This document shows, in pieces, positions 52,608 through 54,210 of a DNA stretch of 64,000 bases. The DNA is taken from assembly GCA_900105225.1 (NCBI GenBank), contig LT629764.1, positions 3,988,501-4,052,500 on the forward strand, read 5' to 3'. The notes beneath the pieces are model-generated. The model was given only the letters and a program-made list of their open reading frames with translations, did not search any database and was not told where the DNA came from. The stretch comes from Paenibacillaceae bacterium GAS479 (GTDB lineage: Bacteria; Bacillota; Bacilli; Paenibacillales; Paenibacillaceae). Numbering within the stretch: the first letter of the stretch is position 1; the number at the start of each line of letters is the position of its first letter. The position numbers and the translations under genes are program-made.

Positions 52608-53198
52608 ATGGCTCAGCGGATAGCCACAGAGTATGTAAACGCCAAACTGCAATTGACCCGTGAAGAGATGACCCGTTTTTACCGTTTTATCAAGGAGCAG
52701 CAAGTGCGCTTTAGCGTCATGGTGCTTGATAACGGCAGCCAAGAGGCGGTTCTCGAAGACAGCGCAGGGAGGGAAAAAGTCCGCTTTGTATTCCAACAAG
52801 AGGATGACCGCTTCATATGCCAATGGTCCTGCCGAATTACTGGGCCAGCACTGACCAACGTCATGCGCAAAGTTGTTTCGGCATTCAAGGGCGATGCGGT
52901 TGTCAACAGAATCTACAGCCATTATACGATGATTTATCATTATCAGGCCGGTGCCGTGCAGCGCATCGTTGAGCAGACTGCCAAGGGAGACCGCCTTGTG
53001 TTCCAGTTTAAGGACACGCTAGGCGAGCTGGAGCGGACCTTCCATATGAAATCGGTGGAAGGCGAGATTGAGTGGTTGAAGAGAGCCGTCAATCGACTGT
53101 TGGATCAACGGCTGGTTGCTTCTACGGAGCAAGCTAAACAGGAAGTTGATCAACAGCTAGCGGAGTTATCCAACCGACTGTTCGCCTTGGAAGCTTAA
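52608..53198 (+). CDS. Conserved-looking hypothetical protein between engB and speD
   Basis: A 196-residue soluble protein I do not recognise. Residues 1-60 contain helix plus strand (LTREEMTRFYRFIKEQQVRFSVMVLDNGSQEAVLED), a beta-rich middle follows (KVRFVFQQEDDRFICQWSCRITGPALTNVMRKVVSAFKGDAVVNRIYSHYTMIYHYQ), and the C-terminus is a helix or coiled coil (QAKQEVDQQLAELSNRLFALEA). ATG 52608 has TGAGGAGA upstream. A TATAAT at 52559-52564 may be its -10 box. Confidence 0.65.
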   Translation: MAQRIATEYVNAKLQLTREEMTRFYRFIKEQQVRFSVMVLDNGSQEAVLEDSAGREKVRFVFQQEDDRFICQWSCRITGPALTNVMRKVVSAFKGDAVVNRIYSHYTMIYHYQAGAVQRIVEQTAKGDRLVFQFKDTLGELERTFHMKSVEGEIEWLKRAVNRLLDQRLVASTEQAKQEVDQQLAELSNRLFALEA

Positions 53199-53240
53199 GC
53201 CCGCTTTAAACTTAATTAGACTTAATTGATTTAATCATTG

Positions 53241-53268
53241 AACCGCCTCTTCGGAGGCGGTTTCTTTC
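53241..53268 (+). terminator. Terminator after the 52608 gene
   Basis: AACCGCCTC (53241-53249), TTCG loop, GAGGCGGTT (53254-53262), then TCTTT. Confidence 0.9.
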
Positions 53269-53414
53269 ATAATTAGGGGTGTGGCGCTCGCTGCAACTGG
53301 GATTTGTGAAAAATGCTGATCAACGGGGCCGAGGCGCCGCCCGATTTACCGAAAAAAAGGTTGCAATTAAGTGGTATAGATGTTATTTTTAATTTCGTTG
53401 AAAAAAACCCAATA

Positions 53415-53527
53415 TAGGAACCAGGATTCACTCAGGACATGGATATGTTGCGAGAGAGAGTTATCCCTCGGGAAGTGAATGACGTAGGTCCTAGCGGATG
53501 AAATTTCTAATCATTTTATTCCTAGGA
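53415..53527 (+). ncRNA. Candidate structured cis-regulatory leader of speD
   Basis: Nested helices: TAGGAACC (53415-53422) with GGTCCTA (53487-53493, one bulged A); ATTCACT (53426-53432) with AGTGAAT (53474-53480); and inside ACAT/ATGT (53437-53448) and CGAG/CTCG (53451-53470), or alternatively GGATA/TATCC. TCCTAG (53489-53494), the 3' strand of the outer helix, can instead pair with CTAGGA (53522-53527) touching the speD ribosome binding site. I do not recognise it as a known riboswitch class. Confidence 0.45.
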
Positions 53528-53542
53528 AGGGGGAACCGGAAG

Positions 53543-53941
53543 ATGGAATACTCAACTTTCGGAAGACATGTTGCGGTTGATGCTTGGGGAGTAGATTTCG
53601 AACTCATTAACAATGCAGAGTTTCTGCAAGCCCACATGGTAGAGGCGGCAGAAGCATGCGGCGCATCTGTACTCTCAGTTCAAGCCCAGCAATTCGAGCC
53701 ACAAGGCGCAACGGTACTGGTGCTCTTGTCAGAGAGTCATCTCTCGATTCACACGTATCCAGAAAGAGGCTTTGCCGCGCTTGATTGTTACACTTGCGGC
53801 GAGACGGTGGATCCGCAGCTGGCGATTGATTATATGCTCGCTGTTCTCAAACCTAAAACGACTCACGCCAAGAAGCTTATCCGCGGCATGGGAGAGCTTC
53901 AGGTAGTAGAACCGGAAATGAAAGCAACTGAACTGGTTTAA
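53543..53941 (+). CDS. speD: S-adenosylmethionine decarboxylase proenzyme
   Basis: A 132-residue proenzyme of the small prokaryotic class that makes decarboxylated SAM for spermidine synthesis. LLSESHLSIHTYPE near residues 61-74 is the self-cleavage site; Ser65 should become the pyruvoyl group. DCYTCG supplies the catalytic Cys. ATG 53543 follows AAGGGGGAA. No spermidine synthase is adjacent. Position between engB and hemA is an insertion relative to Bacillus order. Confidence 0.95.
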   Translation: MEYSTFGRHVAVDAWGVDFELINNAEFLQAHMVEAAEACGASVLSVQAQQFEPQGATVLVLLSESHLSIHTYPERGFAALDCYTCGETVDPQLAIDYMLAVLKPKTTHAKKLIRGMGELQVVEPEMKATELV

Positions 53942-53958
53942 TAACCGGGACTCTTTAC

Positions 53959-53993
53959 AAATAACCATGGAGCGCTCCATGGTTATTTTTTTT
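53959..53993 (+). terminator. Terminator after speD
   Basis: A perfect palindrome, AAATAACCATGGAGC and its complement (53959-53988), then a run of T residues. Confidence 0.9.
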
Positions 53994-54136
53994 AGCCTGT
54001 GACATATTCCAACTGTGGAATAGAAAGCCAAAACGCAGTCAACACTATTTCATAGACCATACATGAAGGCTGTCCAGCACCGGAAAATGCCTTCAACAAT
54101 CCGTCATAAATCGCTTAAATCGGTCTTGTCGAACTA

Positions 54137-54145
54137 TGCTATACT
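54137..54145 (+). promoter_or_regulatory. Extended -10 promoter of the hem cluster
   Basis: TGC-TATACT, 65 bases before the hemA start; no clear -35. Confidence 0.55.
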
Positions 54146-54210
54146 AGTGAACGAACCTTTTGTACGCTTTTTTTGTTTGGAATTTTCTTGTGGAGGGGCG
54201 GTGATGTCAC

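Follow-up and report, generated by a model that had tools for sequence, protein, structure and literature searches.

The leader of speD in the window, that is, in the 64,000-nucleotide stretch of DNA analysed here, appears to be one form of an uncatalogued RNA through which Bacilli control how much speD is translated. A riboswitch that senses a metabolite is the most likely identity, and we hold this reading with moderate confidence. That a real, widespread and uncatalogued cis-regulatory RNA exists before speD we regard as practically certain; that it is a translational riboswitch, and that it binds a ligand, we consider probable. Judging from the genomes compared, nearly every speD-bearing Bacilli genome examined carries a conserved folded RNA before this gene.

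The window belongs to a Paenibacillus-group chromosome, whose nearest named relatives are P. herberti, P. pasadenensis, and P. humicus. The promoter, the parts of the leader, and speD all lie on the + strand. The gene speD (53543–53941, start codon ATG at 53543) encodes an S-adenosylmethionine (SAM) decarboxylase of 132 amino acids belonging to the B. subtilis-type family (TIGR03330, 139.5 bits against a cut-off of 75.65), and it is flanked by a 211-aa open reading frame (ORF) on one side and by hemA on the other. The step catalysed by this enzyme commits SAM to the synthesis of spermidine. A likely promoter was located at 53361–53389, with the −35 element TTGCAA (53361–53366), a 17-nt spacer, and the −10 element TATTTT (53384–53389) preceded by TG; it is conserved in Paenibacillaceae as read from the alignments, and the call rests on conservation and spacing, the consensus scanner having given none. 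A terminator-like hairpin with a T-rich tail (AACCGCCTCTTCGGAGGCGGTTTCTTTC) is found at 53240–53268, 3′ of the upstream 211-aa ORF, where the consensus scanner was also silent; the weak PhotoRC-I and Hrs13 matches upstream were attributed to this hairpin of the preceding gene and not to the leader. Outside the window, the same genome has a second SAM-decarboxylase-family match (G000:C1:3547694-3547891, 36.5 bits, below the cut-off, in a 273-aa frame), where no match of the leader RNA was detected.

Read directly, the two long helices of the initial annotation, and the helix proposed there to compete, sit exactly at the positions given. The outer helix, P1, joins TAGGAACC (53415–53422) and GGTCCTA (53487–53493), although its pairing had to be corrected: the five base pairs UAGGA/UCCUA are followed by an A·G mismatch (53420·53488) and then by a C-G pair. 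The 5′ strand of P1 is thus 53415–53421 (UAGGA, A53420 as mismatch or pair, and C53421); it changes together with 53487–53493 (UA to CG, AU to GC, and A·G to U-A), the mismatch being a U-A pair in other families. The inner helix, P2, pairs ATTCACT (53426–53432) with AGTGAAT (53474–53480), as RNA AUUCACU and AGUGAAU, both strands with compensatory changes. Between P1 and P2 there is an internal loop that is near-invariant, formed by ACCAGG on the 5′ side (53420–53425, across families) and by GACGUAGG on the 3′ side (53481–53488); ACCAGG is a candidate ligand pocket of this outer module. The competing helix, HB, is the alternative to P1. Its 5′ strand (TCCTAG, 53489–53494, with two-sided changes in three pairs) overlaps the P1 3′ strand GGUCCUA, common to the two helices, and its 3′ strand (CTAGGA, 53522–53527) lies immediately 5′ of the Shine-Dalgarno sequence (SD) of speD, AAGGGGG (53527–53533), kept as such in most relatives. 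Inside HB, the MFE fold places a hairpin H (53496–53521; GGAUGAAAU at 53496–53504 with AUUUUAUUC at 53513–53521), which differs in sequence and length among families. From the SD to the start codon (53534–53542), the window and its relatives have a ACCGAAAG-like stretch, conserved in the outer-module group and with no obvious pairing partner.

Within P2, the pair of small hairpins that had been drawn as a three-way junction is not conserved beyond close relatives. The hairpins exist in the window in their Paenibacillaceae form (53437–53470; ACAU/AUGU at 53437–53448 and CGAG/CUCG at 53451–53470); the first is removed by a 9-nt deletion in L034/L036, and genus g12 is without both forms. The junction is not conserved because the window lineage, which keeps the outer module, has variable hairpins at the position where an inner core, described below, sits elsewhere. 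Single-sequence folding gave an unremarkable energy (MFE −30.6 kcal/mol, z = +0.21). In the ViennaRNA ensemble without pseudoknots HB reached 0.80 and P1 0.07, so that the formation of P1 would depend on tertiary contacts or on a ligand.

The competing helix had been proposed to switch to the ribosome binding site, and it does lie immediately beside this site, but it ends shortly before the SD. A segment within the structure that could mask the ribosome binding site most directly had been missed: the anti-SD UCCCUC (53464–53469), complementary to GGGGGA (53529–53534) and paired with it in the MFE fold. All 75 aligned relatives have a C-rich segment 0–7 nt before the P2 3′ strand, able to form 4–9 contiguous base pairs with the SD. 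Where the SD is GAGGGGGG, GAGAGGGG, or GGGAGGGG, the anti-SD becomes CUCCUC, and this class reaches −11.4 kcal/mol with its own SDs versus −7.6 with those of the other class. The A-type anti-SDs (C-runs) pair about equally well with either SD class, so this test of anti-SD/SD co-evolution is one-sided. The anti-SD/SD helix makes a pseudoknot if P2 is formed and encloses HB if P2 is absent. Taking into account that no terminator-like site or U-run terminator was found in the leader (53190–53560 scanned), and that an anti-SD faces the SD, translational control is the economical reading. General features of translational riboswitches are present: a conserved structured leader adjoining a metabolic gene, and two exclusive structures, one of which is predicted to affect the ribosome binding site.

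The P1, P2, and HB helices were examined on an alignment (A3) of the 75 relatives. P1 and P2 together showed standard pairs in 91.2% of the cells, compared with 24–39% in slid controls, and two-sided changes in six pairs, and HB was paired in 92.0% of the cells; the helices exceeded the slid and shuffled controls as well as a null that preserves the tree, the number of substitutions on each branch, and the rates of the columns. Double compensatory events on the same branch numbered three for P1 (null mean 0.11), two for P2 (0.13), and two for HB (0.05), and for none of the helices did more than 1 in 300 nulls reach the observed count. Clear examples of paired changes in P1 are U-A to C-G and A-U to G-C in L152, A-U to G-C in L301/L302, and the A·G mismatch turned into U-A, both sides together, in 14 sequences; those in P2 are C-G to U-A in L259/L265, L278, and L301/L302; and those in HB are U-A to C-G in L152 and L301/L302. 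In the all-pairs covariation test against the tree-preserving null, no P1, P2, or HB pair was significant after correction, because these helices barely vary in the outer-module group. The outer-module helices are thus supported by a small number of independent events. The initial annotation would have been contradicted by a lack of compensatory changes among relatives; such changes were found in P1, P2, and HB, and both of the mutually exclusive helices it had put forward, P1 and the one with CUAGGA, are kept by them. On this comparative evidence we take P1, P2, and HB to be real helices, of which P1 and HB cannot coexist. Considering that they share 53489–53493 and that both have compensatory changes, both seem to be under selection, which is the signature of a switch.

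The primary sequence is conserved as well. The blocks TAGGAACC[A/C]GGATTCACT, GTGAATGACGTAGGTCCTAGCGGATGAAA, and TTTTATT[C/G]CTAGGAAGGGGG match in 80 of 80 named Paenibacillus-group loci, and in the same comparison the third codon positions of speD have a mean pairwise identity of 57%; by this measure the conservation of the leader is far beyond chance. Its central segments vary, as does the downstream hairpin in its loop, both with insertions and deletions.

The distribution of the RNA follows that of speD. A DNA match to the 135-nt leader was found in 219 of 300 Paenibacillaceae genomes and speD in 225, the leader-positive genomes being almost the speD-positive set. A covariance model (R1) built on P1, P2, and the hairpin downstream of them matched 151 of 201 genomes within the order and, at the level of the class, 105 of 301 Bacilli genomes, across many families. 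In a sample of the phylum (379 genomes), the only genomes with the RNA outside Bacilli were two from one family of another class, and in both it precedes a speD of ~70% identity. Nearly all the matches that were read (91 of 93) sit directly upstream of speD. Of the 122 closely related speD loci in the class sample, 113 carry the RNA, and of the nine that seem to lack it, L308 clearly has a divergent copy, which scored under the cut-off of the search; conversely, 113 of 115 matches precede a closely related speD, one precedes a distant speD, and one is due to chance. A general absence of the segment before other speD genes, which would have spoken against the original proposal, was therefore not observed, and the RNA is strictly linked to speD. 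The weak model match in G658 (L283), where there is no speD, was put down to chance, and so was that in G1004 (L303). The plasmid and phage collections gave no copy of the leader by DNA similarity.

Some loci depart from the single arrangement. In G186 (L235, 101–216) there is a remnant of the leader, intact from P1 to P1′, whose downstream half is gone together with speD, with hemA coming next; this is consistent with decay of the leader after the loss of speD. Family f22 has two RNA copies per genome, and there (L203, L206–L208, L236–L241, L293–L296) two speD genes are found whose leaders differ in type: the anti-SD is CCCCC in one and CUCCUC, matched by the SD, in the other. In family f28, L310, L311, and L312 have second speD-like copies with other leaders and without either module. 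These copies may encode neofunctionalised decarboxylases. Ornithine or arginine takes the place of SAM as the substrate of some bacterial SpeD homologues (PMC10407285), so that second copies without the RNA may be different enzymes.

Before the more distant speD genes of Bacilli, whose products have about 37–45% identity to the SpeD of the window, the outer module is mostly missing, and a different element, which the initial annotation had not noticed, is found. Between the P2 strands of these loci lies a near-invariant core, CUUAAAGGGUURGGACCUC-N4-GGACUAACYUUCCCCCGUGGU, and the SD is again AAGGGGG. This inner core was seen in all 27 distant loci inspected; a covariance model built on it (R2) found it in 40 of 45 further genomes, one copy each, and in 31 of 31 fetched loci the core is directly before speD. 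The enclosing P2, homologous to that of the window, covaries strongly: 252 of 270 cells are paired (shuffled mean 189.2, maximum 209), with 11 double compensatory branch events. In L331 (G450) there is a long insertion exactly in the apical N4 loop, which supports the hairpin model of the inner core. One of these loci, in Anoxybacillus amylolyticus (NZ_CP015439.1, L341), has the gene order gapB-speD-nrdR, which is also that of B. subtilis; the sequences compared come from genomes other than B. subtilis itself.

It was also possible to see both modules together, the inner within the outer, in families f28, f41, f47, f24, and f16 and at the distant-speD loci L278, L313, L320, L321, L342, L348, L350, L351, and L371. 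A tentative explanation, which we consider possible rather than probable, is that two ligand-binding modules are nested concentrically around P2 and share a single anti-SD/SD output before speD. The outer sensor would consist of ACCAGG/GACGYAGG with the P1/HB exchange and the inner one of AAAGGGUURGGACCUC-N4-GGACUAAC, each of which could be lost; the outer sensor would have remained in Paenibacillales and the inner one in Bacillaceae-like genomes, with several families keeping both. If this were true, one gene would read two signals of the SAM/polyamine pathway, an unusual architecture.

Whether with one module or two, the proposed riboswitch would close the ribosome binding site when the anti-SD pairs with GGGGG, with HB probably stacked beside the anti-SD/SD helix and P2 forming a pseudoknot with that helix. 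A ligand bound to the conserved internal loop in the outer form, or in other Bacilli to the inner core, would shift this balance and so set the amount of SpeD. The ligand would most likely be a compound of the SAM/spermidine pathway, our first guess being spermidine (end-product repression) and the second SAM (the substrate). Candidate sites for a response to the ligand are ACCAGG/GACGUAGG in the window leader and AAAGGGUUAGGACC in the inner-core leader. In the inner-core form the ligand-bound state is expected to be OFF, because the anti-SD belongs to the invariant core. For the outer form, the predominance of HB in the ensemble suggests that this helix, stacked at one nucleotide's distance from the anti-SD/SD helix, may be the default closed state, and P1 stabilised by a ligand would open the ribosome binding site; alternatively, the closed state would be that of P1, P2, and the pseudoknot.

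The initial annotation described a structured speD leader that matches none of the SAM, purine, TPP, preQ1, or guanidine classes; the comparison of leaders shows that it is conserved, and the Rfam 15 scans of the window region and the relatives place it in no family. A cmscan of 52800–54200 up to E = 10 gave chance-level matches only and no SAM family; at gathering cut-offs there were 0 matches in 28 relatives (12 + 16 loci); and a permissive scan of inner-core loci up to E = 5 yielded nothing beyond microRNA-type and sRNA matches at chance level. Neither the SAM-I (RF00162) nor the SMK box (RF01767) covariance model matched the leader, be it in the window region or in the relatives. In the SMK box (SAM-III), an internal anti-SD hides a G-rich SD; the speD leader is alike in outline, with anti-SD and SD in one RNA and proposed translational control, but its anti-SD lies near the P2 3′ strand and not in a three-way junction, and the gene is speD and not metK. 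With preQ1-II, SAM-II, and SAM-V the likeness is in topology only, a possible H-type pseudoknot with the SD as 3′ strand; no covariance model of these matches, and the speD RNA adds the P1/HB strand exchange and the nested inner core. Another close known system is the spermidine riboswitch, a SAM-I variant found before speD, speE, and speB in some Bacilli, with a SAM-I-like four-stem junction, transcription termination as its mode of action, and 13 known examples (Salvail et al. 2023, PMC10853860), a study that also used B. subtilis with speD or speE removed. Both are cis-regulatory RNAs before polyamine genes including speD in Bacilli, and the ligand route proposed here would resemble the feedback on spermidine described there; the RNA of the window leader differs in that neither a SAM-I match nor a terminator was found in it and that it precedes speD almost universally in the sampled Bacilli. 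The odc1 motif, a uORF-linked conserved RNA domain before an ornithine decarboxylase gene (PMC8632094), is also a conserved RNA before a polyamine-biosynthesis gene, but the gene is another one and the speD leader has no comparable maintained uORF. In RNA discovery surveys (PMC8632094, PMC11109978, PMC6429828, PMC7266159) this unrelated motif was the only polyamine or decarboxylase entry. A 79-nt region of the B. subtilis speD leader is listed in a table of Hfq co-immunoprecipitated RNAs (PMC3574147), so that the leader had been noticed, while the passage in question is silent on its structure, conservation, ligand, and family. No description of the speD RNA was found in the open-access literature searched, the conserved sequences being absent from its main texts; it is absent from Rfam 15 and looks undescribed as far as that literature goes.

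Among the alternatives to a new riboswitch, membership in a known class, as a SAM-I-derived spermidine riboswitch or an SMK box, is hardly credible: hiding the SD by an internal anti-SD is common to the SMK box, and pathway and target gene type are shared with the SAM-I variants (PMC10853860), yet the Rfam matches of the window, the relatives, and the inner-core loci stay at chance level, and topology and motifs differ. Control by a leader peptide, in which a ribosome on a translated leader ORF would alter the folding of the RNA, is very improbable. The window has a short ORF at 53439–53501 (MDMLRERVIPREVNDVGPSG; peptide MLRERVIPREVNDVGPSG and a stop), and an ATG ORF starts at the same site, with AGGA a few bases upstream, in 78 of 80 named Paenibacillus loci. 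Most Paenibacillus relatives encode MLREIIPSGSE and a stop, in a frame that differs at the 3′ end from that of the window ORF; a 2-nt insertion in the genus of the window gives a different C-terminus, a frame used also in L220 and L230, and the ATG or the frame is missing in L221, L223, L225, L227, and L226. The constant residues fall in RNA-constrained bases, free positions change amino acid freely, and the inner-core families have no such ORF. With start codon and frame variable or missing and the ORF absent from those families, a leader-peptide attenuator was rejected.

A constitutive structured 5′ UTR, serving stability, tuning of translation rate, or temperature sensing with no dedicated ligand, is improbable. 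It would agree with the high A+U content, the SD-adjacent hairpin, and the general stabilisation of RNA by spermidine and Mg2+, but the segments ACCAGG, GACGYAGG, AAAGGGUURGGACCUC, and GGACUAAC are near-invariant at sites that need no simple pairing, which a simple thermometer or stability stem would not require. Unpaired core sequences as invariant as these are a usual feature of metabolite aptamers, and they also argue against the strongest of these alternatives, that SpeD itself or another RNA-binding protein blocks the entry of the ribosome without a small-molecule aptamer. We consider this protein control unlikely, although less so than the preceding explanations. The RNA is found before speD and no other gene, as in ribosomal-protein leaders, which would fit autoregulation by SpeD; the two conserved modules broadly track two SpeD subgroups; and the B. 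subtilis speD-leader region is among the Hfq-enriched RNAs in the table mentioned above. Against it, both modules occur before close SpeDs (L257, L263, and L274, with 67–74% identity) and before distant ones (L278, L313, L320, and L342), so the modules do not strictly follow the SpeD type. To our knowledge, SpeD has no recognised RNA-binding domain, which also weighs against this explanation.

The papers searched leave the control of SpeD level in Bacilli unexplained. A near-universal RNA before speD, absent from Rfam 15, would be a sizeable candidate for a new riboswitch class in a well-studied group of bacteria.
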